The position numbers and the translations under genes were made by a program. Under the pieces are notes generated by a model, which saw only the letters and a list, made by a program, of their open reading frames with translations, was not told the DNA's origin and ran no database searches. This document shows, piece after piece, positions 3,453 to 51,157 of a stretch of DNA of 64,000 nucleotides; position 1 is the stretch's first letter, and the number at the start of each line of letters is the position of its first letter. Source of the DNA: an uncultured Porphyromonadaceae bacterium (GTDB lineage Bacteria; Bacteroidota; Bacteroidia; Bacteroidales; Muribaculaceae); the NCBI GenBank assembly GCA_947175295.1, contig CAMWMK010000004.1, forward strand, positions 1 through 64,000, given 5' to 3'.

Positions 3453-3509
3453 AATGCATAATTAGCTACGCTCAAGCTAAAGCAAGTCACAATGCATAAT
3501 TCATAATTA
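3453..3509. repeat. Dispersed AATGCAT/AATTCAT repeat with GCTACGC spacer
   Basis: AATGCAT units flank a 31-base spacer holding AGCTACGCTCAAGCTAAAGC, followed by AATTCAT. The same ~50 bases recur inverted at 51,109-51,157, and shorter relatives occur elsewhere in this window. It lies between convergent genes. The remaining gap to 3595 shows nothing else. Confidence 0.8.
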
Positions 3510-3595
3510 TTTGCCGCTGGATTTCAGCTTAAAATATTTTGATGATACTATGCATTTAATTTGAATAGCTACTTAAGGTAGTAGTTGTCGTCGAT

Positions 3596-5050
3596 TTAGA
3601 ATGAGAACTGGGCCATGAGGCCGAGGCGGTCGGCTCGGCGCGATGCGCCGTCCCAGTTCTTGCGCACTCCGGTGTCGAATTCCAGACCGGCCTGAATGCG
3701 GGGGGTGAGGTTCCAGAATACGTTTGCCGTAAGAATGTTGCCGTAGCGGTATTCCGAATCCTCGCGAGGACGGCGCGGCAGGTAGCGGCTGTCGGAGTAT
3801 GAGACGGAGGCGAAGAGGTTTGGACGGAAGTTATACTGCACTCCGGCACACCATCCGAGGGCGAATGGCGCATACATGTCGGTGGGATTGCCGGGAGAGG
3901 GCACGAGGTCGTAGTTGCCTACCTGAAGGTCGCCTGCGGTGCTTTCGTGTCCGCGTCCGCAGTTGAAGGTGCCGTAGAGTGTCACCGGCGATATCGGATG
4001 CACCACCGTGGAAAGCTGCAGGCCCCAGCCGAACTTGTGATGGCGCGTATGGCTTAGAAGGTCTTCATATGGCAGGGAGCGGGTAAGGGCCGCGAGGCGT
4101 ACGTGTTCGCTCTTTCCCCACGCATACTGGATGAAGGCTGCGAAATCAGGCATTGTCTGGCTTGCGGTGCCGATCTTACCGGCTACAGTAGAGACGGCGG
4201 CGCTTTTTGGAAGTTCCACCGAACCCGCCACGGTCCAGCGTGTCTTATACGTATTCATCCATCTTACGAGCACGGATGTAGGTGAGATCTTATTGGAGGG
4301 GCCGTTGGCGTCGACGGTAGGAGGAAGCGCGGCAGGGTCGGAGAATGTGGAGGAAGCGTAGCCTACGGTCACGTTGTTGAGTTGGGCGTATGCCTTCTTC
4401 AGGTGGAAGTCGGAGCCTCCGTAGCCGTTGAAATTTGCCTCTATGTAGAGCTGATAGTTGCCGAAGGTCTTGTTTTTGCCGATCACGCGGAAGAAGAGTG
4501 TGGAGCCGGCGGGGGTGGCGCCGATCTTGCTGTTGTTGGCGGGATCCTTCACCATAGGAATCAGGTAGGGGGTGAAGCTGTTGGCGGGAATCGCGGCATC
4601 CATGTCATACCATCCCCGGATGCGCACGCATCCTCCTATGCCCATTGCGAGGTCGGCGTCGCGGCTCATGAATAGGAAGTAGGGGGCTGCGGGGTCGGAG
4701 AAGCTCTGAAACTGATCGTAGAAGAAGTTTTCCACGATATCGCGTATGGAGTCCTGATGCTGAGGGGCGTCGGCGTTGGCCGGGCGGCCGTCGATATAGA
4801 TTATCTTATGGTCGGAGAGGAGGGCTTCCTTCTGCTCGTCGACGAGGGAGCGTGACGGAAGGGTCTGCACAGTCTCGGACTCTGGCGATTCCTCTGCTAT
4901 CGGCGTCGGAATGGAATCCTTCGGTTGTGTCTTCTGGCGGCTCTTTCTTGCGGGAGCGGAGAAGGACATGGCTTTGTGATGGTCTTGCGCGAAAGCGGGC
5001 ATGCAGACGGTCAAAGCAAAAATGGCGGCGAGTAGGGAAGTGTATTTCAT
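3596..5050 (-). CDS. Outer-membrane porin, DcaP-like
   Basis: 484 residues; signal peptide at 1-20 (cleavage after AFA), then a charged, Pro-rich linker with a possible short coiled coil, then a beta-barrel from ~130 to the end. The last residue is Phe (QFSF), the usual signal for barrel insertion by Bam. The barrel pattern, beginning with a GGCVRIRGWYDMDAAI-like strand and a central SSTFSDPAALPPTVD loop, resembles DcaP-type trimeric porins. The predicted role is diffusion of small solutes across the outer membrane; the substrate is unknown. I took the ATG at 5050, since the alternative 12 bases upstream only adds four non-signal residues. It stands alone, convergent with the GH43 gene. Confidence 0.65.
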   Translation of the reverse strand: MKYTSLLAAIFALTVCMPAFAQDHHKAMSFSAPARKSRQKTQPKDSIPTPIAEESPESETVQTLPSRSLVDEQKEALLSDHKIIYIDGRPANADAPQHQDSIRDIVENFFYDQFQSFSDPAAPYFLFMSRDADLAMGIGGCVRIRGWYDMDAAIPANSFTPYLIPMVKDPANNSKIGATPAGSTLFFRVIGKNKTFGNYQLYIEANFNGYGGSDFHLKKAYAQLNNVTVGYASSTFSDPAALPPTVDANGPSNKISPTSVLVRWMNTYKTRWTVAGSVELPKSAAVSTVAGKIGTASQTMPDFAAFIQYAWGKSEHVRLAALTRSLPYEDLLSHTRHHKFGWGLQLSTVVHPISPVTLYGTFNCGRGHESTAGDLQVGNYDLVPSPGNPTDMYAPFALGWCAGVQYNFRPNLFASVSYSDSRYLPRRPREDSEYRYGNILTANVFWNLTPRIQAGLEFDTGVRKNWDGASRRADRLGLMAQFSF

Positions 5051-5253
5051 AGTCGGAATCATTTAGTATGTCAGATAAACCTTAAAGTAGGTTAAAAAGT
5101 TCGATGATGTGTGAATTTTTTTTGAGATACCCTATGGCGGATATTTCGCACTGCGTGCTCAACACAGTGTAGACGACATGAGTGAGAGGATGACCGCGAA
5201 AAGATAGATAAATGAAAGAGCTGCGACGCAAGATTGATTTTTGAGAGGTGGAA

Positions 5254-5285
5254 TTTGGAGAAGTGGGGAATTTGAGTTATCTTTG
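5254..5285 (+). promoter_or_regulatory. Sigma-ABfr promoter of the BNR propeller gene
   Basis: TTTG at 5254-5257, 20-base spacer, TATCTTTG at 5278-5285. This matches the Bacteroidetes -33/-7 pattern exactly. Start codon is 29 bases downstream. Confidence 0.8.
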
Positions 5286-5313
5286 CATTCAGATACTTAA
5301 ACTAACCGCAGAC

Positions 5314-6624
5314 ATGAATCGAAACTCGGGTAAATACATACTGGCAGCATTCGTGGTGCTGCCTTACCTATTCTCTTCCGGGAAGAACATAGAGGGGAAA
5401 CTGGTGAAGGTCGGCGACGGATATGCCGCTACTTCGGTGAATACGGCGGTGTTCCGCGGCAGTTCCCTTGCCACCCACGGCGATACGCAATACATAGCGT
5501 ATTACGATGGCGACGGGTATGTGACGCTCGGAAAGCGTAAGCTCGGCAGCGACGACTGGACGCTGCAGCGCACACAATACAAGGGCAAGGTGACCGACGG
5601 CCACAATGTGATAAGCATAGGAGTGGACGGCGACGGATATGTCCACGCCTCCTTCGACCATCACGGACATCCGTTGCGCTATGCGAAGTCGACGGCGCCG
5701 GGAAGTCTGGAACTGGGCGACATGATTCAGATGATAGGCGACGGCGAGCAGGACGTGACCTATCCTGAATTCTACACACTGGCAGACGGCGACATGATCT
5801 TCGCCTATCGGTCGGGCGCTTCAGGCCGGGGCAACCTCGTGCTCAACCGATACGACACCGAGTCGAAGACATGGAGCAGGGTGCACGACGTGCTCATCGA
5901 CGGGGAAGGGGAGCGCAACGCCTACTGGCAGATGTATGCCGACCCGAAGGGGACGCTGCATCTATCATGGGTATGGCGCGAGACATGGCTTGTGGAGACC
6001 AACCATGACCTCTGCTACGCCCGCTCAGACGACGGCGGCAAGACCTGGAAACGCAGCGACGGGACGCCCTATCAACTGCCCATCACTCAGGCTACCGCTG
6101 AAAAGGCATGGGAAATCCCGCAGAACTCCGAACTAATCAACCAGACCAGCATGACGGCCGACGCAAAGGGACATCCCTTCATAGCTACTTACTGGAGGGA
6201 TCAGGAGAGCCGGACTCCGCAGTACCGCCTCGTATGGCACGACGGAAAGAAATGGCGGATGAGCACCGTAGGGGAGCGGAAGACTCCCTTCTCGCTGGCT
6301 GGCGGCGGCACGAAGATGATACCCATCGCGAGGCCCCGCATAGTATCAGACGGCAGGAAGGCCTGCTATATATTCAGGGATGAGGAAAGGGGAAGCAAGG
6401 TGAGTGTGGCCTATACCCCGCAGCTCGGCAAGAAGGACTGGACAGTGACGGACATGACCGACTTCAGCGTGGACGCCTGGGAGCCTTCGCACGACCTCAA
6501 CCTCTGGAACCAGCGGCGGCAGCTTCACGTATTCGTGCAGCCCAGCCATCAGGGCGACGGAGAGAAAGTGGCGGATACGGGAAAAAACACCGAGCCGGTG
6601 TATGTCATGGAGGTGGAGTTTTAA
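5314..6624 (+). CDS. BNR_4-family seven-bladed propeller protein, possible polysaccharide lyase/hydrolase
   Basis: 436 residues with a signal peptide (~1-20). It has the hallmark of the BNR_4 family: an HNVISIGVDGDGYVHASFD motif near residue 95 followed by HHGHPLRY. Related secreted proteins in Bacteroidetes include GH145/PL42 enzymes acting on rhamnose-glucuronate linkages and PL25 ulvan lyases, all with this propeller fold and catalytic His residues. I cannot tell which, or whether this one is catalytic. The start at 5314 is set by the promoter at 5254-5285, whose transcript would begin near 5291, after the longer ORF's first codon. The stop codon directly abuts a heptamer repeat. Confidence 0.7.
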   Translation: MNRNSGKYILAAFVVLPYLFSSGKNIEGKLVKVGDGYAATSVNTAVFRGSSLATHGDTQYIAYYDGDGYVTLGKRKLGSDDWTLQRTQYKGKVTDGHNVISIGVDGDGYVHASFDHHGHPLRYAKSTAPGSLELGDMIQMIGDGEQDVTYPEFYTLADGDMIFAYRSGASGRGNLVLNRYDTESKTWSRVHDVLIDGEGERNAYWQMYADPKGTLHLSWVWRETWLVETNHDLCYARSDDGGKTWKRSDGTPYQLPITQATAEKAWEIPQNSELINQTSMTADAKGHPFIATYWRDQESRTPQYRLVWHDGKKWRMSTVGERKTPFSLAGGGTKMIPIARPRIVSDGRKACYIFRDEERGSKVSVAYTPQLGKKDWTVTDMTDFSVDAWEPSHDLNLWNQRRQLHVFVQPSHQGDGEKVADTGKNTEPVYVMEVEF

Positions 6625-6652
6625 GTCATAATGCATAAAGCATAATCGGCTA
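6625..6652. repeat. Heptamer array (4 units)
   Basis: GTCATAA, TGCATAA, AGCATAA and TCGGCTA follow each other in strict 7-base register directly after the stop codon at 6622-6624. Same family as the arrays at 20,465 and 44,618. Confidence 0.7.
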
Positions 6653-6678
6653 TAAAGCAAATAAATCAAAATAAAGAT

Positions 6679-13131: not shown

Positions 13132-13152
13132 TGCATAATTCATAATTCACAC
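13132..13152. repeat. Short heptamer array (3 units)
   Basis: TGCATAA, TTCATAA and TTCACAC in 7-base register in the 43-base gap before the EnvC-like gene. Confidence 0.6.
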
Positions 13153-19419: not shown

Positions 19420-20463
19420 ATGGCAAAAATGAAATTCGGTGAGGTCGAGGAGACCGTAGTCACCAGAGAGGAATTCCCTCTCGAGAAAGCCCGTGAGATA
19501 CTTAAGGATGAGACCATCGCCGTGATCGGCTATGGCGTGCAGGGCCCCGGCCAGAGCCTCAACCTGCGCGACAACGGATTCAACGTGATCGTAGGGCAGC
19601 GCGAAGGCAAGACCTACGACAAGGCGGTGGCCGACGGATGGGTGCCGGGCGAGACCCTCTTCTCTATTGAAGAGGCATGCGAGAAGGGCAGCATCATCAT
19701 GTGTCTTCTCTCGGATGCCGCCGTGCTTTCAGTATGGCCTACCATCAAGAAGCACCTCACGGCTGGCAAGGCCCTCTATTTCTCGCATGGGTTCGCCATC
19801 GCATGGCCCGAGCGTACTGGAGTCGTACCTCCGGCCGACGTAGACGTAATCCTCGTAGCCCCCAAGGGGAGCGGCACATCGCTCCGTACGATGTTTCTTG
19901 AAGGGCGCGGCCTGAATTCCAGCTACGCCATCGAGCAGGACTATACCGGACGTGCGCTCGACCGCACGCTGGCGCTCGCCATCGGTATCGGCTCAGGCTA
20001 TATCTTCGAGACCACATTCAAGCGCGAGGCTTACAGCGACCTCACCGGCGAGCGCGGCAGCCTCATGGGTGCAATCCAGGGTCTGTTTCTGGCTCAGTAT
20101 GAGGTGCTCCGCGAAAACGGCCATACACCCTCCGAGGCCTTCAACGAGACAGTTGAGGAGCTGACCCAGTCGCTTATGCCGCTCGTAGCCAAGAACGGTA
20201 TGGACTGGATGTATGCCAACTGCTCCACTACCGCACAGCGCGGCGCCCTCGACTGGATGACTCCCTTCCACGACGCCATCAAGCCCGTAGTGGAAAGACT
20301 CTACAAGAGCGTAGCCGACGGAGTGGAGGCCCAGAACTCCATCGACAGCAACTCCAAGCCTGACTACCGTGAAGGGCTTGAGAAGGAACTCAAGGAGCTC
20401 CGCGAGAGCGAGATGTGGCAGGCCGGCGCCACCGTACGCAGCCTCCGCCCGGAAGGCAACTGA
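19420..20463 (+). CDS. ilvC: Ketol-acid reductoisomerase
   Basis: 347 residues, class I KARI. The Rossmann motif GYGVQGPGQSLNLRDNG begins near residue 37, and the VGQREG loop after the second beta strand points to NADPH as cofactor. It isomerises and reduces acetolactate to 2,3-dihydroxyisovalerate with Mg2+; the acidic metal ligands lie in the C-terminal knotted helical domain (for example SDLTGERGSLMGAIQG and AFNETVEEL). Last gene of the operon; its stop codon is followed after one base by a heptamer array. Confidence 0.95.
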   Translation: MAKMKFGEVEETVVTREEFPLEKAREILKDETIAVIGYGVQGPGQSLNLRDNGFNVIVGQREGKTYDKAVADGWVPGETLFSIEEACEKGSIIMCLLSDAAVLSVWPTIKKHLTAGKALYFSHGFAIAWPERTGVVPPADVDVILVAPKGSGTSLRTMFLEGRGLNSSYAIEQDYTGRALDRTLALAIGIGSGYIFETTFKREAYSDLTGERGSLMGAIQGLFLAQYEVLRENGHTPSEAFNETVEELTQSLMPLVAKNGMDWMYANCSTTAQRGALDWMTPFHDAIKPVVERLYKSVADGVEAQNSIDSNSKPDYREGLEKELKELRESEMWQAGATVRSLRPEGN

Positions 20464-20464
20464 A

Positions 20465-20548
20465 TTCTCAATGCATAATTCATAATGCATAATTCATAAT
20501 TGGCTACGCATTTGATTATGCATTATGCATTGAGCATTATGCATTAAT
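20465..20548. repeat. Heptamer array, 12 units
   Basis: 84 bases read in exact 7-base register. The first half alternates TGCATAA and TTCATAA; a middle TTGGCTA/CGCATTT/GATTATG block follows; the second half is CATTATG-type, roughly the reverse complement of the first. It starts two bases after ilvC and runs into the 3' end of ribD, supplying that gene's stop codon at 20537-20539. Confidence 0.85.
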
Positions 20549-24663: not shown

Positions 24664-27306
24664 ATGACTTTGACAAGAACGCTAAGACGGATCATGCTTG
24701 CAGTCGCTGCAGTCGCCGCGACCATGCCCGTGCTTGCACAGACGCCTACAAACGACACCATATACAATCCCGACATAATCTACAGCCCGATCCCGAAAGT
24801 GTATGAGATCGCCGGCATCAAGGTGACGGGAGTGCCTGATGTGGAAGACTACGTCATCATCGGATATTCGGGCCTCTCGGTAGGGGAGCGCATCGAGATT
24901 CCCGGTGAGGCCATATCCACGGCCGTCAAGCGCTTCTACCGTCAAGGCCTCTACTCCAAGGTGGAGATCAATCTGGAGAAGACCGTAGGCGACAAGGCCT
25001 GGCTTGAGATCTCGCTCAAGCAGCAGCCCCGTATGGCAGAGCTGCGCTTCAACGGAGTGAAGGGGGGCGAGAAGAAAGACCTCCTCGAGCGTCTCGGCGT
25101 GGAGAAGGGCCAGCAGCTTACTCCAAACATCGTAGCGCGAATAGTGCAGGTCGTAAAGCAGTATTATAACGACAAGGGTTTTAAGAACGTCATCGTCACT
25201 TCCTCACAGCAGCCCGACCTCTCTCAGGAAAACTACAACTACCTGACCATTAATGTGGACAGGCAGAACAAAGTGAAGGTACACAAGATCTACATCAACG
25301 GCAACGAGGTGCTTTCCGACCGCAAGGTGAAAAACGCCATGAAGAAGACCAATGAGAACCACGACATACTCAATCTCTTCAAGCAGAAGAAATTCGTGGA
25401 CTCAGACTATGCCGACGACAAGATCCGCATCATAGAGAAATACAACGAGCTCGGCTACCGCGACGCCGAGATCCTCAGCGACTCAATCGCGAAATACGAC
25501 GACAAGGAGATAGACATCTACCTTAACATCGACGAGGGCGACCGATACTTCATCAAAGACATCAACTGGGTGGGCAATACCATCTATTCCACCGACTTCC
25601 TCAACCAGGTGCTCGGTATGTATCCCGGCGACGTCTACAACCAGAAGCGCCTCAACAAGCGCACGATGGAAGACGATGACGCAGTGGGCAACCTCTATCT
25701 CGACAACGGCTACCTTTTCTTCCAGCTCGTGCCGATCGAGCAGCAGGTGGAGGGCGACAGCATCTCGCTGCTCATGCGTGTCTACGAAGGGCAGCCGGCG
25801 AAGATCAACAAGGTGGTGATCAACGGTAACGACCAGCTCTATGAGAAGGTGATCCGTCGCGAGCTGCGCGTGAAGCCGGGCGACCTCTTCTCGAAGCGCG
25901 CGCTTATGAACTCGGCGCGTGAGATCGCCGCCAGCGGACACTTCGACCCTGAGACCATGGGAGTCAACCCGATCACCAACGATGCGGACGGCACCGTAGA
26001 CATCGTATTCGACCTTGAGCAGAAAGCCAACGACAAGGTGCAGCTCTCGCTCGGATGGGGCCAGACCGGCGTCACCGGCCAGGTGGCACTCTCATTTTCC
26101 AACTTCTCGATCAAGAACCTCTTCAACCCGTCGAGCTACCGAGGCATCATCCCGCGCGGCGACGGACAGACCTTCTCGATCTCAGCCCAGACCAACGCCA
26201 AATACTATCAGAGCTACAACATCAGCTTCTTCGATCCATGGCTCGGCGGCAAGCGACCGAACTCATTCTCCTTCTCCGTAGACTACAGCCGTTCGACAGG
26301 CATCAACAGCAGGTTCTATAACAACAGCTACTTCAATGCCTTCAACAACTCGTATCTCTATTCCGGCGGCAGCTCCTACTATAATGACTATGCCGGCTAC
26401 AGCTATCAGAACGCCTACGACCCCAACAAGGTGCTTCAGCTCGCGGGTGTGTCGGCGGCATATGGTACGCGCCTGACCTGGCCCGACGATATGTTCCAGT
26501 TCCAGGTGTCGCTCGCCTACCGCTGGTATTACCTCAAGAACTGGGAATATCTCCGATTCATGAACACCGGCTCGGCCAACTCCATTGTGCTCGGCCTGAC
26601 GCTCAGCCGCAACACCACCGACCAGCCCATCTATCCGCGTACGGGCTCCAGCTTCGCCCTCTCTCTGCAGATGACTCCCCCATGGACTTCGATACGTAAA
26701 GGCCATGACTGGAAGAAACTCTCCGAGGAGGCTAACTCCAGAGACGTGAAGGCTCAGGCCGAACTCTACAAATGGATTGAATACTGGAAGCTGAAGTTCC
26801 AGTCGAAGACCTTCACCCCGCTTTCCGATCCGGATGGCAACTGGACACTCGTGATGATGACGAAGGCTGACTTCGCTCTCTTGGGTTCATACAATAAATA
26901 TGTAAAGTCGCCCTTCGAGACATTCTATTTCGGTGGCGACGGTATGACGGGAAGCTACACCTATGCTACAGAGACAGTAGGCATGCGAGGCTATGAGAAC
27001 GGCCAGTTCACCCCCTACTACTATGAGGCATATGCCTACTCGAAGTTCACCTTCGAGCTTCGCTTTCCCTTCATGCTGCAGCCCAACACTACAATCTTCG
27101 CGCTTGCCTTCGCTGAGGCCGGCAACGCATGGACCGATATCAAGCAGTTCGCACCCTTCAACCTGAAGCGCTCCGCCGGAGTCGGCATCCGCCTCTATCT
27201 CTCCATGCTCGGCTTCCTCGGCATAGACTGGGGTTACGGCTTCGACAATGTATGGGGCAAACGCGGCGGCGGCAACCTCCACTTCGTGCTTGGACAGGAG
27301 TTCTAA
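24664..27306 (+). CDS. bamA: Outer membrane protein assembly factor BamA
   Basis: 880 residues: signal peptide (~1-26), five POTRA domains (~40-460), then a 16-strand Omp85 barrel to the C-terminus (HFVLGQEF, terminal Phe). Barrel insertions are rich in Tyr/Asn/Ser (for example around residues 550-580). It is the central component that folds proteins into the outer membrane. Flanked by uppS and two Skp/OmpH chaperones, which deliver its substrates. The stop codon abuts a ten-unit heptamer array. Confidence 0.95.
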   Translation: MTLTRTLRRIMLAVAAVAATMPVLAQTPTNDTIYNPDIIYSPIPKVYEIAGIKVTGVPDVEDYVIIGYSGLSVGERIEIPGEAISTAVKRFYRQGLYSKVEINLEKTVGDKAWLEISLKQQPRMAELRFNGVKGGEKKDLLERLGVEKGQQLTPNIVARIVQVVKQYYNDKGFKNVIVTSSQQPDLSQENYNYLTINVDRQNKVKVHKIYINGNEVLSDRKVKNAMKKTNENHDILNLFKQKKFVDSDYADDKIRIIEKYNELGYRDAEILSDSIAKYDDKEIDIYLNIDEGDRYFIKDINWVGNTIYSTDFLNQVLGMYPGDVYNQKRLNKRTMEDDDAVGNLYLDNGYLFFQLVPIEQQVEGDSISLLMRVYEGQPAKINKVVINGNDQLYEKVIRRELRVKPGDLFSKRALMNSAREIAASGHFDPETMGVNPITNDADGTVDIVFDLEQKANDKVQLSLGWGQTGVTGQVALSFSNFSIKNLFNPSSYRGIIPRGDGQTFSISAQTNAKYYQSYNISFFDPWLGGKRPNSFSFSVDYSRSTGINSRFYNNSYFNAFNNSYLYSGGSSYYNDYAGYSYQNAYDPNKVLQLAGVSAAYGTRLTWPDDMFQFQVSLAYRWYYLKNWEYLRFMNTGSANSIVLGLTLSRNTTDQPIYPRTGSSFALSLQMTPPWTSIRKGHDWKKLSEEANSRDVKAQAELYKWIEYWKLKFQSKTFTPLSDPDGNWTLVMMTKADFALLGSYNKYVKSPFETFYFGGDGMTGSYTYATETVGMRGYENGQFTPYYYEAYAYSKFTFELRFPFMLQPNTTIFALAFAEAGNAWTDIKQFAPFNLKRSAGVGIRLYLSMLGFLGIDWGYGFDNVWGKRGGGNLHFVLGQEF

Positions 27307-27376
27307 GTTTTACGTTGTACGTTTTACGTTTTACGTTTTACGTTTTACGATTTGCGTTTTGCGTATTGCGTTTTGG
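27307..27376. repeat. GTTTTAC heptamer array, 10 units
   Basis: Ten consecutive 7-base units with consensus GTTTTAC in the first six and GTTTTGC in the last four, beginning at the base after the bamA stop codon. A 78-base gap to the ompH gene follows. Confidence 0.92.
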
Positions 27377-41113: not shown

Positions 41114-41116
41114 GCA

Positions 41117-41158
41117 TTTGACGTTTGACGTACAACTTACAACGTACAACGTACAACT
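41117..41158. repeat. TACAACG/TTTGACG heptamer array, 6 units
   Basis: Two TTTGACG units followed by four TACAACG or TACAACT units in exact 7-base register. It supplies the last codons and the stop (41137-41139) of the minus-strand helicase-nuclease gene. Confidence 0.88.
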
Positions 41159-44100
41159 TCCCCGAGGCTTACATACCATATGTAGGCCTCGCATTTTTTC
41201 GCTATGCCGGTCTTCAGAAGGGTGTAGGCGTAGCGTATTGCCTGGTTGCAATAGTCTTCGTCGTTGCGATGCTCTCCGAATTTATAGTCTACTATCACTG
41301 CCGAGCCGTCGGGGCGCAGTAAGATCCTGTCAGGACGTTGCACTTTCCCGTCTACCGCGATGCCGCGCTCGTTGATCACCCTGCATCCGGGGGCGAACCA
41401 TCCGTATGGCTCCACATCCGCTATGGCTCGGGCGAGCATGGGCTGCATCTCCTCCATTTCCCGACGTGTGATATGGCCTGTGCTCTTTGCCTTCAGCAGG
41501 GCGCATGGAAGATCGGCGGCTATGATTATATTCTCCATGATGGAGTGCATCAGTTCGCCATAGCGGCGGCTTTCTTCCGATTCTTCCTCTTCGGGAGTCT
41601 CCTCTTTGAGGTCGGAGGGCAACGTGTCAGTATCCGGACTTGAGGGATCGGAACATATGATGGCGGGTAGATGCTCGCTGCATCGGTAGTCGGTGATGAC
41701 GCTGTCTTCAGGTCCGGCTTCTTTCTTTTTCCGGCCGGCTTCTATTTCCTGACGGGTGAGGGGAGTTCCGAAACTCCAGGTCAGATTCTCCTCGTCGACG
41801 GTGATTTCCTCTGGTGAGGGAATGAGGTCGGCCACATTGCCGTCTGTCCCGTTGATGTTCGGGATGATGTCTTGCGCCTCGGCTCCGCATCTCCATAAGA
41901 AATGACCTATGAGGCTGGTTTCAGGGTTTTTACGGGTGTAGGGACTTGGTGTGAAGATGTAGAGTTCGTCTACCGCGCGTGTATAGGCCACATAAGCATT
42001 GTTGACATTATCGGTAAGGAAGTTTTCCAGATATTCCCCGTAGGTCTTGGCGTGAGGGGTGTCTGCGAGGCGGTCATGGCTCCAGACCGGTATCCAGGGA
42101 ATGGCCGGTATGTCTTCCGCTTCCGATAGGTCCGGCTCCACCCATAGCCACTCCTTTTTCTTATCCTTTGAGGGCTTTAGGGTCTGCTCGGAGTGAGGCA
42201 CGATGACGCATCTGAATTCAAGGCCTTTGGATTTATGCACTGTCATGATGCTGACTGCGTCAGACCCTTCGGGCGATGCTATTGACGTGAACCGGCCTTT
42301 GGCGTCCCACCATCTCAGGAATGACCCGAGGTCGGCTGTGTGTCCTTCGCAGTAGTCGGCCGTGATGTCCTGAAGGGCAGCCAGGAAAGCGGCTTCCGAC
42401 TGCCGGGCATGAGGCGATATGAAGTTGCGGATTATGTTTTCCACAAGAGCCGGAAGCACGGTGGTGCTCATGCCGGCGAGCATGACGCGGATGGCGTCGG
42501 GGTCGTATTCACCTTCCAGAAATCTTGAGAGGGCATCCTGAAGGGAAAGTTCAGGATGGCTCATGGCGAAGAAGCTGAAGTCGGCCTTCAGCCGGCTCCA
42601 GTCGCCCGCTCCTTTGTCTTTACGTTCTTCTTCAGGGTTGAGGCGCGCTTCTGTTCCGTTGTTGATGGCCTCCAGGATCGAGATTACGGTCTGTACGGCC
42701 GGAGATTCTCCGGCCTTGAGCGAGTCCGCGCTGATGAAATTGATTTTTCGCTTGGCTTCAGAGCTGTTGTTGTAGGCCATCAGGCTCTCTATGATCTGCG
42801 AGCCCTGTATGCGGGTATTGACAAGCACGGCTATCTCGCTCATCCTGTATCCGCGGTCGAGCATGTCTGCGATGAGTCCGGGAATCTCGTCGAAGTGGGC
42901 GGGCGCCTTGTCGTCGTTTTTCTCTTTGCCGAAGAGAGAGACCCTTACGTAGCCTATATCCTCCTTGTGCGAGTATGGCTGCATCGTATTGGAGTATAGG
43001 CTTTCCATGCGCTGCCCGAGTTCGTTGGAAAAGAAGCGGAAAAACAGGTTGTTGAATTTCACTATCCTTTTGCTGCTCCTCCAGTTGGTGTTTTCCGCCG
43101 GAGTGTTGCCGCACTCCCGGCAACTGTCTTTAAACCAGGCCGGCACTTCTGCCGTGATGAGGGATGGGTCGGCGTTTCTGAAGCGGTAGATGCTCTGCTT
43201 GGCATCGCCTATGATGAGGTTGTCGTGGCCGTTACCGTCGCTTTCGGAAAGGAGCGGACGAAGGTTAAGCCATTGCAGGCGGCTTGTGTCCTGAAATTCG
43301 TCGATGAGGAAATGCTCCAGCTTTGAGCCGAGTCTCTCGTAGATGAAGGGGGCGTCGTCTTTGCCGATTATGCGGTGGAGTATGGAGTTGGTCTCGCCGA
43401 GCTCCACTGTATTGCTGTCGGTCAGGAAGAGGCGTGAGTTTTCGCGTACGCTCTGCAGGATTCCGACATAAGGCATCGTCTCGCGGTAGATCAGCCAGCG
43501 GCGCCAGCGGTCAGACATGGCCTCGGCCTTCCAGGCGTCAAAGCACCGGTACATTTCCTCCGCAAGTTCCTGTATGTGGTCTTCCACCGTGGTATTGAGG
43601 TAAGGATTTTCCTTTTTAGGGTCGAATACCCTTGTCTGGGTGCCCTTGCGCGTGAATTCAGGAATCGAGAATGTGGCTCCCTTCTCTATGGGATGGTCCC
43701 ATCTCCATGTGACGGCCATATTGTTGACGCGGCCGGCGAGATATTGTCCGGCCGTCTTCTCCATGTCGAGTCCGGCCTTAAGGAATGCGTCGCGCACTGC
43801 GCGGGCACTCTCCCGCATGCGGTCGAAGGCCTCGCGTAGAGGAGTCTCGTAGATCTGGCAGAGCTTAAGGTATGTCGCGTGGAAGTCGGGATTCTTCTCA
43901 AAATAGGCATCGAGTTTTTCCCGTATTTCCTTGAAATCCTCTTTCTCAAGGTTTTTGCTGGCGTCAAGTATTTCCTTGTAGACGTTGTAGTTGCTCTGAC
44001 TTTTCTGAAATATGTTCCATCCTTTGTTTGATGCCGCCTTCTGCTTCATCATACTGCTGATCCACTCGCTTCCTTGAGTAGATTTAAGATCCGAGTCTAT

Positions 44101-44601: not shown

Positions 44602-44617
44602 TTATTTAAATTTTAGT

Positions 44618-44701
44618 GATTGATAATCAATGTATAATGCATAATTCACAATGCATAAGCGTTAGTCTTAACCCTTAACCCTTAACCCTTAACCCTTAAC
44701 C
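44618..44701. repeat. Heptamer array, 12 units
   Basis: 84 bases in exact 7-base register: on the minus strand five GGTTAAG units, then ACTAACG and CTTATGC, then ATTGTGA/ATTATGC-type units, up to 17 bases before the AddA-like start. The SUI1 stop codon (44689-44691) is inside it. Two unrelated unit types thus share one register. Confidence 0.87.
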
Positions 44702-45042
44702 TTGAATCCCATTTCCTTCAGGAGTCGGATCACGTCGGCCTTGCGGTCGCCCTGGATGAGGATTTCGCCCCCGCGAGAGCTGCCTCCGGTGCCGAGCTTT
44801 TTCTTGAGTTTCTGGGCAATCTCGTCGATTTCTTCGTCGGAGATCTCGAAACCCTCGATGATGGTGGCTGTCTTCCCTCCACGTCCTTTCTTCTCGATCA
44901 GTACGTGGAGGGGAGATTTCTGACTTGCGGTAGCTGAGGATGCAGTCCTCAGCATGGTATTGTCATCGGTCGGGGTGTCGGCGGCTCCTTCCGGGAGTCC
45001 TGAGAGTGAGGCGAGAGCGTCTTTCCAGTCCATAATGCTCAT
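44689..45042 (-). CDS. SUI1/YciH-family translation factor
   Basis: 117 residues (114 if the ATG at 45033 is used). The C-terminal ~80 residues are an eIF1/SUI1 domain: VLIEKKGRGGKTATIIEGFE, the TGGSSRGGEILIQGD loop, and VIRLLKEMGFKVKG. Bacterial YciH acts on start-codon fidelity. The first ~40 residues are a polar tail. Lies between the AddA-like gene and a lipoprotein gene, 14 bp after the latter. Its last three codons and stop coincide with the first heptamer of the downstream array. Confidence 0.88.
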   Translation of the reverse strand: MSIMDWKDALASLSGLPEGAADTPTDDNTMLRTASSATASQKSPLHVLIEKKGRGGKTATIIEGFEISDEEIDEIAQKLKKKLGTGGSSRGGEILIQGDRKADVIRLLKEMGFKVKG

Positions 45043-46139: not shown

Positions 46140-46173
46140 GCTTCAATCAATTCTTAATGCATAATTCATAATG

Positions 46174-46205
46174 CAAAATTAGTGAAAAGTGAGCGGATAA
46201 GCAAT
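46174..46205 (-). promoter_or_regulatory. Promoter of the DUF4369 lipoprotein gene
   Basis: Minus strand ATTG (46205-46202), 20 bases, TAATTTTG (46181-46174). The -7 box overlaps the last unit of a four-unit heptamer array at 46151-46178 (TTCTTAA, TGCATAA, TTCATAA, TGCAAAA). Confidence 0.65.
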
Positions 46206-46236
46206 TATAAGGGCGATAAAATTTAGATTTTATGTA

Positions 46237-46707
46237 TTAATCCGGATTGGATTTCTTGAGTCGGCGGGCGGCTTTAGCCTCGTAATCGCGCAGGAGCTGA
46301 TTATATTGCTCAATTTGCTGCTCCGCATCAGGATTGTCCTTGTCCCAGAGCAGATGGTCGATCCACTCATTGACCCTGACGAACTCCTCGTCATTCCGGA
46401 TCTTACCTCGAGTCAGGACTCCGGCCATTCTCTTTGCCATACCGGACATCAGATCCTCCCCGAACTTCTCCATGAGAATCTGGTTTAGCTTTATCAGATA
46501 CTTAGATTCTATACCCTGCAGCATTTCTTTCGTATCTCCGATAAACATTCTCATCTCACGCAGTCGTCCTATCTCTACGCATTTATCGAAAATTTGACGG
46601 TACTCTTTCGAATAATCTTCATCAAAGTAGGGTGATTCTGATATGAATGTCAGCATTGTCTCGCCCCATTCCTGAAGTTTGGTAAACTCTTCACTTTTTT
46701 TTCTCAT
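46237..46707 (-). CDS. Tandem unknown protein, copy 1
   Basis: 156 residues, no signal peptide, highly charged and predicted helical. I do not recognise the family. Residues 1-17 are identical to copy 2; residues ~18-75 differ strongly; ~76-150 are nearly identical in all three copies (ILMEKFGED.., LTRGKIRNDEEFVRVNEWID, then HLLWDKDNPDAEQQIEQYNQ). It ends in KKSNPD, unlike the RKKQS of the others. Third gene of the array in transcription order, separated from copy 2 by 66 bp. Likely cytoplasmic; function unknown. Confidence 0.7.
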   Translation of the reverse strand: MRKKSEEFTKLQEWGETMLTFISESPYFDEDYSKEYRQIFDKCVEIGRLREMRMFIGDTKEMLQGIESKYLIKLNQILMEKFGEDLMSGMAKRMAGVLTRGKIRNDEEFVRVNEWIDHLLWDKDNPDAEQQIEQYNQLLRDYEAKAARRLKKSNPD

Positions 46708-46773
46708 CGTATAGTAGTCGTATTAAGAAGTTTATAATGAGAAGCACATCTATCTCAAGTCTCATCCATAATT

Positions 46774-47244
46774 TCAAGACTGTTTCTTGCGGAGACGTCG
46801 CGCAGCTCTTTCCTCATAATCGCGCAGGAGCTGGTTGTACTGTTCGATCTGCTGCTCCGCATCGGGGTTGTCTTTGTCCCAAAGCAGATGGTCGATCCAC
46901 TCATTGACCCTGACAAACTCATCGTCATTCCGGATCTTGCCGCGAGTCAGGACTCCTGCCATCCTCTTTTCCATACCGGACATCAGATCCTCCCCGAACT
47001 TCTCCATGAGAATTCGATTAATTCCTATTATATCTTTTTGATTCAATCCCATAACCATTTCATTCAGATCTCCAATTAACATTTTCATAATCGATAATCT
47101 GCCTATTTTTATGCATTTGTTGAGTGATTTCAGCCAACTTTCGGCTATGAAAATGTTTCCCTTATCGTTTGACTCAAGCAGATACATGAGTATAGTTTCT
47201 CCCCATTCCTGAAGTTTGGTAAACTCTTCACTTTTTTTTCTCAT
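46774..47244 (-). CDS. Tandem unknown protein, copy 2
   Basis: 156 residues, same layout as copy 1: constant N-terminus, a variable middle here with a GNIFIAESWLKSLNKCIKIG-like helix, and a constant C-terminal half. The C-terminal end (ERAARRLRKKQS) equals that of copy 3. Start codon context and the following 66-bp spacer are the same as for copy 1. The variable middle is more A/T-rich than the constant part. Confidence 0.7.
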   Translation of the reverse strand: MRKKSEEFTKLQEWGETILMYLLESNDKGNIFIAESWLKSLNKCIKIGRLSIMKMLIGDLNEMVMGLNQKDIIGINRILMEKFGEDLMSGMEKRMAGVLTRGKIRNDDEFVRVNEWIDHLLWDKDNPDAEQQIEQYNQLLRDYEERAARRLRKKQS

Positions 47245-47310
47245 CGTATAGTAGTCGTATTAAGAAGTTTATAATGAGAAGCACATCTATCTCAAGTCTC
47301 ATCCATAATT

Positions 47311-47781
47311 TCAAGACTGTTTCTTGCGGAGACGTCGCGCAGCTCTTTCCTCATAATCGCGCAGGAGCTGATTATATTGCTCGATTTGCTGCTCCGCGTC
47401 GGGATTGCCCTTGTCCCAGAGCAGATGGTCGATCCACTCATTGACTCTGACGAACTCCTCGTCATTCCGGATTTTTCCTCGAGTCAGGATGGCTGCCATG
47501 TCCTTGATTTTCTTGGAGCTGATGTCTTCCCCGAACTTCTCCATCAGAATATCATCTAACGCTTTGAGATGTGTTAAAGACATGTCTTCCACAATCCATT
47601 TAACATCATTCACTGCAATCCTCATTTGAACTAAACTGTTATGTTCAAAACTGACTCTGATTCCTTCGTTAAACATTTCATATATATTGCTGGACATCTC
47701 TCCTGATTCATATGCATATGAAAGAATTGTTTCTCCGAAGGATTTCAGTCTTTCCATTTCGAGTTGTTTTTTATTTTTCAT
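47311..47781 (-). CDS. Tandem unknown protein, copy 3
   Basis: 156 residues. It differs from the others from the start (MKNKKQLEMERLKSFGETIL) and in the middle, but rejoins them from ILMEKFGED on, with ISSKKIKDMAAI in place of LMSGMAKRMAGV. At DNA level its last ~58 codons are a mosaic: the extreme 3' end equals copy 2, while the next stretch (around 47,360-47,470) follows copy 1. Promoter-proximal of the three. Confidence 0.7.
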   Translation of the reverse strand: MKNKKQLEMERLKSFGETILSYAYESGEMSSNIYEMFNEGIRVSFEHNSLVQMRIAVNDVKWIVEDMSLTHLKALDDILMEKFGEDISSKKIKDMAAILTRGKIRNDEEFVRVNEWIDHLLWDKGNPDAEQQIEQYNQLLRDYEERAARRLRKKQS

Positions 47782-47798
47782 TGTAACGATAAAATAAT

Positions 47799-47888: not shown

Positions 47889-47925
47889 GATATTTTTATA
47901 TTTGTAAGGATTTTGTTTATGCGGC

Positions 47926-47957
47926 TAAAGTTAAAATTCTTTTTTGAGATATACAAA
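47926..47957 (-). promoter_or_regulatory. Promoter of the tandem array
   Basis: Minus strand TTTG (47957-47954), 20 bases, TAACTTTA (47933-47926). One mismatch from the -7 consensus. Transcript would run through the small ORF into copies 3, 2 and 1. From here to 48,031 I see nothing else. Confidence 0.7.
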
Positions 47958-48031
47958 TTTTTTGGCTTATTTTTTAAGAATTTGTTAATCTGTACCCACA
48001 TTTTTGATTATAGACCAATCTTAATGAATAG

Positions 48032-48067
48032 AAAAGAGGACTCACCTGCCGGGTGAGTCCTCTTTTT
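48032..48067. terminator. Bidirectional terminator after the Ala-rich gene
   Basis: 15-bp perfect stem (48032-48046 with 48052-48066), 5-base loop, A and T runs on either side. It ends the minus-strand gene at 48105. Confidence 0.93.
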
Positions 48068-48104
48068 CAAAAATTTGAAGCTGTCAATAATTTATCATTG
48101 ATCA

Positions 48105-48569
48105 TTAGTCTGAAAGGTCTTTTGCCTTCTTTGCAGCGGCTTCGGATGCTTTTGAAGCTAATTCCGACACCTTGCTGAATGCTTTGGCGGCAAAGCCCTG
48201 GATAGTGTCTTTCGCATCGTCGACTTTATCGCCGAGGGCATCTTTGGCGTCGGCGAGCTTGTCCTGAAGGTTGTCTTTCAGATCGGCGGCCTTGTCCTGA
48301 GCCTGAGCTGCCGCCTGCTGAGCTGCAGTCTTAGCGTCGGCGAGCTTTTCGGCTGCCGCTTCTTTTGCTTCAGCAAGCTTTTCAGCAGCCGCATCTTTGG
48401 CATCGGCAGCCGCATCTTTGGCCTGAGTGAGTTTGTCGGCTGCCGCGTCTTTGGCTGCCGCCATTCCGGATTCGGCTGCGATTTTTGCTGATTCAGATGA
48501 AATTTCCGCTGCTGTCTTAGATACTTCCGCCGCCGCTTTCGCTGCGGCCATATTCAAATTGTTTTCCAT
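48105..48569 (-). CDS. Ala/Lys/Asp-rich LEA-like amphipathic helix protein
   Basis: 154 residues, about half Ala. Repeats of the form AAAEKLAEAKEAA and DAKDAAADKL run the length, an 11-residue-type amphipathic periodicity like group 3 late-embryogenesis-abundant proteins and apolipoprotein-like bacterial proteins. No signal peptide. Such proteins are mostly disordered in solution and protect membranes or proteins in stress; that role is inference. Single gene; the stop lies in a four-unit heptamer array (48081-48108) before the terminator. Confidence 0.65.
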   Translation of the reverse strand: MENNLNMAAAKAAAEVSKTAAEISSESAKIAAESGMAAAKDAAADKLTQAKDAAADAKDAAAEKLAEAKEAAAEKLADAKTAAQQAAAQAQDKAADLKDNLQDKLADAKDALGDKVDDAKDTIQGFAAKAFSKVSELASKASEAAAKKAKDLSD

Positions 48570-48678
48570 AGTTTTATAAGTTTAAGGGGTTTAATTGGTT
48601 TAGGGGGGACTGTGTTAAAGGGTTTTTAGGGCCTTAAGGGTAATCCCTATTGAATAAACACTCGTATCGGTTTCTTGG

Positions 48679-48720
48679 TTCAATTCCTTACGTTGCGTAG
48701 CCGATTATGAATTATGCATT
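48679..48720. repeat. Heptamer array, 6 units
   Basis: On the minus strand AATGCAT, AATTCAT, AATCGGC, TACGCAA, CGTAAGG, AATTGAA in 7-base register. The first two units encode the last residues (MHNS) and stop (48705-48707) of dapL. The GGCTACGC element also seen at 20,502 and 3,464 is included. Confidence 0.75.
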
Positions 48721-49928
48721 CGATTAAGGGCTTCCCTTGTGGCTTCATGGGTATTGAAGGCAGTCAGGCGGAGATAGCCTTCCCCTTCGGCGCCGAAGCC
48801 TGATCCGGGAGTGCCGACTATGCCGTGGGTCTTCAGCAGATGGTCGAAGAATTCCCATGAAGTCATTCCGTCGGGTGTCTTAAGCCATATATAAGGAGAG
48901 TCGACGCCTCCGGCTGTCTCGTATCCGGCTGCCGACAGGGCATCGCGCATCATACGGGCATTTTCCATGTAATATTCCACAGTCTCCATGATTTGCGCCC
49001 GTCCTTCCGGCGAGTAGACAGCCTCGGCCGCGCGCTGCGAGATGTATGACGCTCCGTTGAACTTTGTGCACTGGCGGCGGTTCCAAAGTCGGTTGAGGCA
49101 GACTTCGTTTCCTTCGGAATCATTCCCCTTCAGAGCTTTCGGAACCACGGTATACCCACAGCGGACACCCGTAAAACCGACTGTCTTTGAGAAACTTCGG
49201 AATTCCACAGCCACTTCCTTGGCTCCCTCGATCTCGTAGATGCTGTGTGGCACGTCTGCGCTGTGGATATACGCCTCATAGGCGGAATCGAAGAGTATGA
49301 GGCAGCCGTTATCCCGTGCGTAATCCACCCATTTCTTCAGTTCGTCGCGGGTCATGGCTGTACCCGTAGGATTATTGGGGCTGCAGAGGTAGATTACGTC
49401 GGGTCGCTCCTCCGGCAACTGTGGCACATATCCGTTGGCCTTATTGACAGGAATATATATTATCCCCTCATGGTGCTCGCCATGGCGCCTTCCCCCGCGT
49501 CCTCCCATCACGTTGGTGTCAACGTAGACGGGATATACAGGATCCGTCACAGCTACCTTTAGGTCTTGCGCCAGTATGTCGAAGAAGTTTCCGAGGTCGC
49601 TCTTGGCTCCGTCGCCGATGAATATCTCGTCGGCCTTGATGTCAAGACCGAGGCGGCCATAGTCACAGTCGGCTATTTTGTCACGCAGGAATGCATAGCC
49701 CTGCTCGGGACCGTAGCCATGGAAGGTTTCGGTGGCGCCCTCATCGTCTACGGCGCGGTGCATGGCCTCGATGGCTGCCCGGCAAAGCGGGCGTGTCACA
49801 TCACCGATGCCCATGCGGATTATCTTAACGTCAGGATTGGCATCCTGGAAATCCTTTACCCGTCTGGCCACTTCCGAAAATAGATATGACTCAGGGAGGA
49901 GGAGGAAATTATCGTTTATCCTTATCAT
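48705..49928 (-). CDS. dapL: LL-diaminopimelate aminotransferase
   Basis: 407 residues, class I/II PLP aminotransferase of the DapL type. N-terminal INDNFLLLPESYLFSEVARRV and IRMGIGDVTRPL are diagnostic; the PLP lysine is in FRSFSKTVGFTGVRCGY (~240). It makes LL-diaminopimelate from tetrahydrodipicolinate in one step, bypassing the succinylase route, for lysine and peptidoglycan. The next enzyme, DapF, is encoded just upstream, so the pair forms an operon. C-terminus (MHNS) is array-derived. Confidence 0.95.
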   Translation of the reverse strand: MIRINDNFLLLPESYLFSEVARRVKDFQDANPDVKIIRMGIGDVTRPLCRAAIEAMHRAVDDEGATETFHGYGPEQGYAFLRDKIADCDYGRLGLDIKADEIFIGDGAKSDLGNFFDILAQDLKVAVTDPVYPVYVDTNVMGGRGGRRHGEHHEGIIYIPVNKANGYVPQLPEERPDVIYLCSPNNPTGTAMTRDELKKWVDYARDNGCLILFDSAYEAYIHSADVPHSIYEIEGAKEVAVEFRSFSKTVGFTGVRCGYTVVPKALKGNDSEGNEVCLNRLWNRRQCTKFNGASYISQRAAEAVYSPEGRAQIMETVEYYMENARMMRDALSAAGYETAGGVDSPYIWLKTPDGMTSWEFFDHLLKTHGIVGTPGSGFGAEGEGYLRLTAFNTHEATREALNRMHNS

Positions 49929-49932
49929 TTTT

Positions 49933-49995
49933 GAATTGAGAATTGAGAATTGAGAATTGGGAATTGATCTTTAATCATTGATAATTAATCATTGA
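49933..49995. repeat. Heptamer array filling the dapF-dapL gap, 9 units
   Basis: On the minus strand nine contiguous 7-base units: TCAATGA, TTAATTA, TCAATGA, TTAAAGA, then five TCAATTC-type units, ending four bases before the dapL ATG. It contains the dapF stop (49985-49987). Confidence 0.9.
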
Positions 49996-50794
49996 CTTCC
50001 CCATGGAAGACGGTTGTGGCAGGCCCGGTCATCAGTACGTGTCCTCGGTCATCGAGTGAGATGCGGAGGTCGCCTCCGCGGAGATGGACTGTCACGTCGC
50101 ATCCGGTGAGGCCTTTGGCGATGGCGGCCACAGCTGTGGCGCAGGCGCCGGTGCCGCAGGCCATCGTCTCGCCGCTGCCCCGTTCCCAAACGCGCATCTC
50201 CACTTCGTCGTTGCCCGCAAGTCGTGCGAATTCTATATTGGAGCGGTCGGGAAAGCGGTCATGCTTCTCGGCCATCGGACCTTTGCCGAGCACCATCTCG
50301 TCGGTCAGCGGCTCATCGGCGTAGCATACGAAGTGAGGATTGCCCATTGAGATGACGCTTCCGGAAAGGCGGGAGCCGTCTGGTAGTTCGATTGTCTCTT
50401 CAGTCGTTTCTATTTCCGGCTTTCCCATGTCTACCGTGACCCAAGTCTCAGCATCCCCCGGTTTGGCATCCGGATCGATGTCTATGATTTTGACTCCGGA
50501 AAGAGTGTCGATTTCCAGATGATGCTTGTCAGTGAGGCCTTTGTCGAATACAAATTTAGCTACGCAGCGTATGCCGTTGCCGCACATTCGGCCTTCCGAA
50601 CCGTCGGCGTTGAAAATCCGCATGAGGAAATCAGCTTTATCGGAAGAGCAGATGAGGATGATGCCGTCGCCGCCGATACCCTTATGTCGGTCGCTTAGCC
50701 GTACGGCAAGATCAGCTACGTTTTCAGGTAGTTCGTTGCGACAGTCGATATAGACATAGTCGTTGCCGCAACCGTGCATTTTCGTGAATTTCAT
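49985..50794 (-). CDS. dapF: Diaminopimelate epimerase
   Basis: 269 residues. The two catalytic cysteines are in GRMCGNGIRC (~71) and MACGTGACATAV (~213). Converts LL- to meso-diaminopimelate for peptidoglycan and lysine. N-terminus KFTKMHGCGNDYVYID is canonical. First gene of dapF-dapL. The last residues (VND) and stop are in the heptamer array. Confidence 0.96.
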   Translation of the reverse strand: MKFTKMHGCGNDYVYIDCRNELPENVADLAVRLSDRHKGIGGDGIILICSSDKADFLMRIFNADGSEGRMCGNGIRCVAKFVFDKGLTDKHHLEIDTLSGVKIIDIDPDAKPGDAETWVTVDMGKPEIETTEETIELPDGSRLSGSVISMGNPHFVCYADEPLTDEMVLGKGPMAEKHDRFPDRSNIEFARLAGNDEVEMRVWERGSGETMACGTGACATAVAAIAKGLTGCDVTVHLRGGDLRISLDDRGHVLMTGPATTVFHGEVND

Positions 50795-50825
50795 CTTTTA
50801 CCTGTTAGATTTATGTGTTTTGATT

Positions 50826-50859
50826 GCAAAGTTAGCAAAAATTCATCATACTTCATCAA
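50826..50859 (-). promoter_or_regulatory. Promoter of dapF-dapL
   Basis: Minus strand TTTG (50859-50856), 22 bases, TAACTTTG (50833-50826). Spacer slightly long. The rest of the 380-base gap to 51,175 holds only the repeat at 51,081 and A/T-rich sequence. Confidence 0.65.
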
Positions 50860-51080
50860 AAATATGGAATTTTTATTTTTGTTGTGGCTCATTAAATTGT
50901 CAGGATAAGGTGGTAAGGATTTTCTTATGTAGTAACTTTACGCAAAAAAATATGCCTTCGCGCATCCCCCTAAGGTTGACGCTTTACGCGTCATTTTAGG
51001 TGAAATTTAAATTAAGTATCTGTTTAAATTAAATGTATGGTGTCATAAAGATATTTTCAGCTGAAATACAGCGACAAATA

Positions 51081-51157
51081 ATTATGCATTGTGAATTATG
51101 CATTGTGAATTATGCATTGTGACTTGCTTTAGCTTGAGCGTAGCTAATTATGCATTA
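51081..51157. repeat. ATTATGC/ATTGTGA heptamer array plus AGCGTAGCT element
   Basis: Six units alternate ATTATGC and ATTGTGA (51081-51122), followed by ~28 bases of CTTGCTTTAGCTTGAGCGTA sequence and another TGCATTA. From 51,109 on it is the inverted copy of the repeat at 3453-3509. It ends 18 bases before the GH108 gene. Confidence 0.88.

Follow-up and report, generated by a model that had tools for sequence, protein, structure and literature searches.

Short arrays of contiguous 7-nt units, whose unit sequence differs from one array to the next, are scattered through the spacers of a 64,000-nt stretch of DNA from an uncultured Porphyromonadaceae bacterium of the Muribaculaceae (contig CAMWMK010000004.1, positions 1 to 64,000; hereafter, the window). 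What could give arrays of such different sequence a common period? The initial annotation had listed eleven of these arrays and ascribed them to a dedicated 7-nt copying or slippage process rather than to one spreading element. We found that the arrays have more in common than their period: they lie beside open reading frames (ORFs), mostly at stop codons, they read outward from the nearer ORF, they most often count four units, some of them are matched by an inverted arm of the same unit in the same gap, and they recur at orthologous gene ends, where the gaps that carry them are longer. In one genome, they are also copies of fixed length. Thus, it is the layout of the arrays, not their sequence, that needs explanation.

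All eleven arrays were found at the coordinates originally assigned to them, and nine are well beyond chance, as none of 300 dinucleotide shuffles reached the observed score (self-match at lags 7 and 14). The other two, 48081-48108 and 48679-48720, had been listed with the rest, but both are weak, with a score of 7 that was reached by one of 300 shuffles each and with no period-7 row in Tandem Repeats Finder. Within the intergenic DNA of the window (10.3 kb), six segments scored at least 12 at period 7 and nine at period 14, whereas each of the remaining periods from 4 to 15 had zero or one and the shuffles had about zero. A sample of 464 kb from the same genome (13% of 3.63 Mb, with stretches picked by contig order) yielded 16 segments at period 7 and 16 at period 14, while all remaining periods from 2 to 30 had four or fewer and three shuffle sets had none at 7 and 14; the coding DNA of this sample contained a single segment at period 7 and none at 14. 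The predicted excess of period 7 over periods 6, 8, and 9 therefore holds for the genome of the window and likewise for its array-rich relatives, with the exception of genome G067, in which period-9 segments outnumber those of period 7 (5 vs 3). The period-9 arrays of G067 are of the type GACTAATTR (L131 11403-11485 and other places). A period-10 array with a mostly constant CATGA and five variable bases was seen in G099 (L138 12831-12946), and period 10 also occurs at a few loci of the window's own genome. It is very unlikely that the arrays are assembly artefacts, since similar arrays are present in many separately assembled genomes, and a four-unit version is found in the assemblies of named isolates, Parabacteroides sp. 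PF5-6 and Cytophaga aurantiaca among them. Overall, the central observation of many differing unit sequences sharing one period of 7 was borne out.

Beyond their period, the arrays are alike in their position. Our main set consisted of 220 arrays from 15 of 17 genomes examined, all scoring at least 12 with lower scores excluded. Genes were called with a program of our own, whose codon bias was trained on the DNA under analysis or, for small samples, on the genome of the window; its start sites are less certain than its stops. The array started between the inside of an ORF and 10 nt off its edge in 148 cases, at 11-30 nt in 30, and at more than 30 nt in 42. The nearest ORF edge was a stop for 147 arrays and a start for 73, and 56 of the 147 stop-edge arrays overlapped the 3' end of the ORF by at least 4 nt. 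Among gaps of at least 30 nt in 14 of the 17 genomes (G030, G033, and G099 excluded), arrays were present in 8 of 146 divergent, 137 of 764 tandem, and 27 of 129 convergent gaps, and only 1 of 111 arrays from five unit families lay inside coding DNA. The dominance of period 7, the near absence of arrays from coding DNA, and their lower number in divergent gaps would all fit ordinary heptanucleotide microsatellites, in which polymerase slippage prefers 7-nt steps and the products survive where they do no harm, for the most part in 3' spacers. The available part of PMC4679880 attributes to Mrazek 2007 a slippage mechanism with a polymerase contact of 7 nt. Microsatellites do not, however, predict a polarity. 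For the same five families, the nearer ORF was on the 5' side of the array in 88 of 109 cases from 13 genomes (80 of 99 without the window, p = 2e-10), and within 12 nt there were 57 arrays at a 5' edge versus 10 at a 3' edge. The sense of these families had been set after a partial view of the data, and stretches fetched later were therefore counted apart; 41 of 49 arrays there were outward (p = 1e-6), including 26 of 27 with a stop as the 5' edge and 15 of 22 with a start. TTCATAA was outward in 13 of 13 arrays from the sampled stretches of the Bacteroidales genome G219. Genome G285, which we take to be Parabacteroides sp. PF5-6, has the opposite sense, with the complementary strand AATTATG outward in 23 of 26. 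Arrays without an inverted partner kept the polarity as well (59 of 74), mainly due to those at stop edges.

The number of units is similarly constrained. Four units was the most frequent length (102 of 220 arrays), followed by three and five with 33 arrays each. The arm of G285 is a 30-nt sequence of fixed length: a degenerate four-unit pattern matched 33 places in this genome, with the same terminal GAG in 32 and an identical sequence in 23. A different dispersed repeat of AAAAGGCCGCCGG-type units is also present in G285 (L212 15239-15322 and L206 17348-17423). For G219, a similar four-unit pattern matched 20 places and four identical 32-mers with the same second-unit variant stand in two gaps, but eight overlapping matches form one array of about 11 units; thus, the length of the arm is not fixed there. 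These observations weigh upon the choice between slippage and a spreading element. The initial annotation had favored the former, yet many loci share a small number of unit families, one 21-mer is present in 23 exact copies (backwards control, 0), and the fixed 30-nt copies, inverted partner arms, and lengthened gaps all speak for an element. Length itself points both ways, since a four-unit mode and fixed 30-nt copies differ from the open-ended lengths expected of slippage, whereas long arrays and 7-nt steps favor it. In support of microsatellites, long arrays do contain drifting units, and orthologues of the gene ending at 13119 differ by 7-nt steps (three TTCATAA units in G078, three in G014, and one in G067). 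Slippage probably lengthened some arrays, such as the 107-base TTAAGGG array of G012. As a complete explanation we nevertheless consider it unlikely, because it predicts neither the polarity, the four-unit mode, and the fixed 30-nt copy nor the matched inverted arms and the presence of arms where the gaps of relatives are tight.

The matching of arms is most apparent in gaps with arrays near both edges. The same unit was outward from both sides in 28 of 34 such gaps, compared to 16.8 expected from each genome's pool (units compared by column consensus), and even the rare units AGTAGTT and CAATTGA were paired inside one gap. Among the 29 pairs of sufficient length, arm identity was 0.885 within gaps versus 0.744 between gaps, a value that none of 200 draws reached; the corresponding identities were 0.98 versus 0.945 in G219 (6 pairs) and 0.93 versus 0.74 in G285 (10 pairs). 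The window itself contains an inverted pair at 20463-20546, as well as two gaps, 44618-44701 and 49933-49995, in which arms of differing units meet, each outward from its own ORF. Both had been described as two unit types adjoining in unbroken register. For the first, this was mistaken, as the self-match is interrupted between 44658 and 44667. For the second, merged lag-7 and lag-14 runs do span the whole stretch, but the adjoining units are similar to each other (GAATTGA, TCATTGA).

Inverted arms also raise the possibility of a selected function at the RNA level, either as 3' or intercistronic hairpins for mRNA end protection, processing, or termination, or as a supply of stop codons in three frames, given that 7 is no multiple of 3. 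The matching of paired arms, the depletion of arrays in divergent gaps, and the terminator-like hairpins adjoining two arrays are all consistent with this, and the pair at 20458-20552 folds with a z of -3.4. In contrast, 44590-44705 (z 0.63) and 49925-49998 (z 0.18) fold no better than shuffles, while the z of -5.5 for 41110-41200 comes with a long stem that is the adjoining terminator-like hairpin. With two of four folded gaps no better than shuffles, we rejected the RNA hairpin as a general cause, and the polarity of arrays lacking an inverted partner is a further argument against it. Stops in all three frames were read outward from 97 of 124 stop-edge arrays and inward from 70 of 124, and units holding an outward stop numbered 110 of 124 compared to 92.3 +- 4.3 after letter shuffling. 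However, this excess was not significant when each distinct unit was counted once (40 of 50 vs 36.3 +- 2.4 shuffled), and three-frame stops were likewise rejected as the reason for period 7. A function in RNA may apply to some arrays, such as the 20463-20546 pair, but not generally; as the explanation of the arrays, we regard it as quite improbable.

A comparison of orthologous gene ends indicates how the arrays come and go (identity floors of 60% for recurrence counts and 55% for gap lengths). Gap lengths were compared in 56 ortholog pairs that share the downstream gene and in which one gap contains array bases and the other does not. The array carrier had the longer gap in 48 of them, with a median difference of 52 nt and a median array of 36 bp, while the median difference in 232 array-free pairs was 15.5 nt. 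The array-free partner had a gap of 40 nt or less in 16 of these pairs, one example being the 1-nt gap of G067 versus the 110-nt gap of G012 with its 107-bp array. The ilvN-thioesterase gap of the Parabacteroides family is similarly informative (20 of 30 returned loci were compared and genes were named by reading of their proteins). Heptad arms are found in 2 of the 20 loci, G285 (88 nt) and G391 (62 nt), whereas 16 of 20 have gaps of -23 to +19 nt; for G379, the downstream gene was not matched. At the same place, G185 (L352) has a 179-nt insert with G+C-rich inverted repeats and no heptad arms, which differs from both G285 and G391. Arrays were present at both orthologous ends in 49 of 450 pairs versus 15.5 expected, and in 25 of 185 versus 9.5 expected when both gaps measured at least 60 nt. 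Within the clade of the window, the unit was shared at only 13 of 51 array-bearing orthologous ends (counted from all 552 pairs, including two of 26% and 30% identity). The gene end at 27306 is illustrative, as its orthologue in G078 also has GTTTTAC, those in G005, G014, G079 (TTAAGAG), and G081 (ATTAAGT) have other heptads, and those in G067 and G099 have no array. Likewise, the gene that follows the 6625-6652 array starts 54 nt past the stop of 5314-6624, whereas in the G014 and G075 flanks of this BNR_4 gene end there is no array and the first ATG lies 11 and 22 nt past the stop.

Recurrence with new units could also be accounted for by a templated, telomerase-like tailing of broken DNA ends, which would add about four heptads to each 3' end exposed in a gap. 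Such tailing would produce outward polarity, inverted pairs of one unit, and lineage-specific units, and it fits the pairing of AGTAGTT and CAATTGA within single gaps. Set against this, no enzyme for it was found, the identical 30-nt copies of G285 resemble the copying of an element, and units show no clear gradient of age. Ku-type end joining was rejected as a candidate, since Ku is absent in 41 of 41 genomes. We consider tailing very improbable.

The distribution of the arrays is patchy. Arrays abound in G005 and G014, two close relatives in our sample, but are nearly absent from G030 and G033 of the same genus (the stretches of relatives were partly picked on contigs with known matches, such that array density is not a fair sample). 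Within the order, a 25-nt pattern for the TTCATAA/TGCATAA family matched 25 of 295 genomes; these belong to 22 of 184 genera from scattered families, and the backwards control of the pattern was empty save for G175. At least 119 stretches from named genomes contain the exact sequence (AATTATG)x4; among the matches listed are Bacteroidota, Cyanobacteria, Ruminococcus, Lentisphaerae, Anaerolineae, Treponema, Chitinispirillaceae, Desulfobacterales, and Aliikangiella. A simple caller placed none of the matches at the 80 loci listed inside an ORF, and for many the nearest edge was no more than 10 nt away. Which strand reads outward varies between genomes, and both occur within a few (Ruminococcus, Lentisphaerae), with few matches per genome.

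From these results, we favor, with slightly better than even confidence, the interpretation that the arrays are dispersed extragenic modules of four heptads, similar to repetitive extragenic palindromes (REP) and miniature inverted-repeat transposable elements (MITE), which are inserted beside ORFs and in some cases extended by slippage. A typical module would be a 28-33 nt arm with some four units of 7 nt, either single or as an inverted pair around a short center, and would sometimes be joined by an extra hairpin module. Copies would be inserted into the spacer beside an ORF, mostly at or over its stop codon, with the arm reading outward from that ORF; afterwards, the units could drift or grow in 7-nt steps via slippage, and in other species new arrays of different unit families could arise at the same permissive gene ends. 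We infer that existing copies serve as the source of new ones and that the longer arrays owe their length to slippage.

A number of observations weigh against this interpretation. The extra length of a gap is only loosely related to the length of its array (correlation 0.25, slope 0.62), and the ortholog pairs are non-independent, with two or three hot gene ends weighing heavily. No clear polarity was present in G046 (3 to 1) or G187 (1 to 1), and just 13 of 24 single antisense arrays in tandem gaps lay closer to the start. Long arrays, such as the 27 units in G005 and the roughly 11 units in G219, need expansion, and no clear gradient of unit divergence was found along arrays. The presence of (AATTATG)x4 in many phyla is poorly explained by a single spreading lineage. 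No copying enzyme was found either. Y1/REP-associated tyrosine transposase (RAYT) was rejected as the carrier, as its genes occur in 28 of 41 genomes and do not track array richness where this is known: array-rich G014 has none, while array-free G008, G015, G016, and G018 have three each. The flanks of the Y1 gene in the window's genome contain no 18-mer that is present at least three times in the 859 kb examined. Lastly, no target-site duplication was established at the array-free sites examined, and a parent transposon was not found.

A broader proposition is that some sequence-independent process common to distant phyla equips gene edges with outward arms of roughly four heptads, frequently at the two sides of a gap at once, with a unit that changes by lineage; the process could involve a mobile palindrome of a new class, or heptads could be added to DNA ends from a template. 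We put this forward tentatively, as a possibility that is somewhat doubtful. The layout known from Xanthomonas, here combined with mostly AT-rich, fast-changing units, suggests that the shared cause lies in how the arrays are made rather than in their letters.

Arrays of the window's species have a further component. TGCATAA arrays often enclose the hairpin module TTAGCTACGCTCAAGCTAAAGCAAGTC, which was found in 22 copies (up to 3 mismatches) in the window's genome and in 6 of 61 genomes searched, with a backwards control of 0. Its inner stem occurs as AGC/GCT, GGC/GCC, and AAC/GTT. Across all 29 distinct variants, five cells were changed on both sides, which only 1 of 500 shuffles reached, and the covariation score exceeded that of 500 out of 500 shuffles; pairs with both-side changes numbered just two, as was reached by 122 of 500 shuffles. 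Alignment of 23 of the 29 variants gave nearly the same covariation result. The module also occurs without heptads, in G+C-rich inverted flanks that vary by place (L030 13834, L058 1501 and 1618, L070 1501). G219 has a different inner module, GGCCATCCGG. The 62-nt element had no match in plasmid or phage collections.

The individual arrays of the window are compiled in Table 1. The arm at 44634-44658 is nearly centered in its gap, with 32 nt between it and the UvrD-like helicase gene and 30 nt to the ORF edge on its other side. A search for known RNA families within the window returned one tRNA and nothing else. Repeats of other kinds were also seen in the window. A small gene has probably been triplicated in tandem at 46237-47781 (- strand), where three consecutive 156-aa ORFs are separated by equal 66-nt spacers, ORF 13163-15154 contains an imperfect 15-base coding repeat (GCCGAGAAAGCCGCG) at 14212-14470, and ORF 48105-48569 contains a two-copy 54-base repeat at 48349-48455.

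Table 1. Heptad arrays, arms, and adjoining hairpins in the window
Feature	Position	Strand	Context
TGCATAA unit, hairpin module TTAGCTACGCTCAAGCTAAAGCAAGTC (3462-3488), TGCATAA/TTCATAA units	3452..3508	+	Convergent genes either side; no ORF edge
GTCATAA/TGCATAA array	6625..6652	+	Directly 3' of stop codon of 5314-6624 (BNR_4 family protein)
TGCATAA/TTCATAA array	13132..13152	+	12 nt past stop of 12214-13119 (DUF4292)
TGCATAA/TTCATAA arm	20463..20501	+	Outward from stop of ketol-acid reductoisomerase (19420-20463)
Inverted TGCATAA arm	20515..20546	-	Outward from stop of RibD-like gene 20537-21406
GTTTTAC array, ~10 units	27299..27375	+	From stop of POTRA-repeat protein gene ending 27306
GTTTGAC units (read on +), GTTGTAC units (read on -)	41117..41157		Between convergent ORF ends; - ORF ends within array
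Terminator-like hairpin	41163..41191	+	Adjoins array 41117-41157
TGCATAA-type arm	44634..44658	+	Outward from start of UvrD-like helicase gene (41137-44601, -)
GGTTAAG x5	44667..44701	-	Outward from stop codon of 44689-45033 (-), stop codon included
TTCATAA/TGCATAA array	46149..46180	+	Outward from start of 45057-46139 (-)
Weak heptad-like stretch	48081..48108	-	Overlaps stop of 48105-48569 (-); terminator-like hairpin 48066-48032 next
Weak heptad-like stretch	48679..48720	-	Overlaps stop of 48705-49928 (-); not clearly above chance
GAATTGA x5	49933..49967	+	Outward from start of aminotransferase gene 48705-49928 (-)
TCAATGA/TTAATTA units	49968..49995	-	Outward from and overlapping stop of diaminopimelate epimerase (49985-50794, -)
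GCATAAT/TCACAAT array, hairpin module TTAGCTACGCTCAAGCTAAAGCAAGTC (51121-51147)	51080..51157	-	Divergent gap; 53 nt from nearer ORF edge

How do these arrays compare to known repeats? They are heptanucleotide simple sequence repeats in the sense that tandem 7-nt units exceed chance and other periods do not. REP palindromes, bacterial interspersed mosaic elements (BIME), and MITEs are dispersed extragenic palindromes that often lie past stop codons and are rare in divergent gaps. Their placement is like that of the present arrays, but the arms described here are built of heptads and showed no link to Y1 transposase genes, and terminal inverted repeats of fixed length, as in MITEs, were encountered only in G285 and not for the families of the window. 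The short tandemly repeated repetitive (STRR) heptamers of cyanobacteria are intergenic tandem heptamers, and are alike by that description. The initial annotation knew of no equivalent in Bacteroidales, and our search of the open-access literature, with result lists seen in part, found no description of these particular arrays. We take Paludibacter to be a member of the Bacteroidales. The absence of any precedent is therefore partly wrong, as TAACTGA repeats have been reported from Beggiatoaceae, Cyanobacteria, and five Bacteroidetes including Paludibacter, according to the available part of PMC4679880. As described there, these are intergenic direct heptamers that occur sporadically by species, as do ours; two Cyanothece strains differ mostly by 7-nt indels, and in BOGUAY the repeats are mostly just 5' of start codons in forward orientation. 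They thus have a single unit on the start-codon side, whereas the present arrays have many units and lie mostly at stop codons. The same part of PMC4679880 cites Mrazek 2007 for heptanucleotides outnumbering the other repeat classes in most of the genomes studied, and neither its description of those long repeats nor that in the available part of PMC4692102 mentions polarity, inverted pairing, or fixed arm length. A survey of prokaryotic genomes found at least three heptamers in a row to be weakly over-represented in several habitat classes (PMC4060949, in part). With heptamers as the commonest long repeats in many bacteria, the question becomes what makes or moves four-heptad arms, and why they point outward.

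The nearest described system is that of the GGGAATC-type heptamers (GGGAATC / GGGGA(C/T)T) of Xanthomonas and Nostoc. In the available part of PMC4692102, these have a four-unit majority in xanthomonads, a nearer ORF on the 5' side, stop-codon overlap, and convergent inverted pairs that are many in Xanthomonas and few in Nostoc; so far as that text goes, the period of 7 and all of these features are common to the present arrays. The sequence family differs, as the unit GGGANTN was not encountered here and our units are mostly AT-rich and belong to many families. That study interpreted the heptamers as quadruplex-forming sequences (PMC4692102, same part). Runs of three G occur in just one of our common families, TTAAGGG, and G-quadruplexes therefore cannot be the common cause. 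Thus, the arrays are variations upon a known kind of repeat, and what is of interest is a layout that is independent of sequence.

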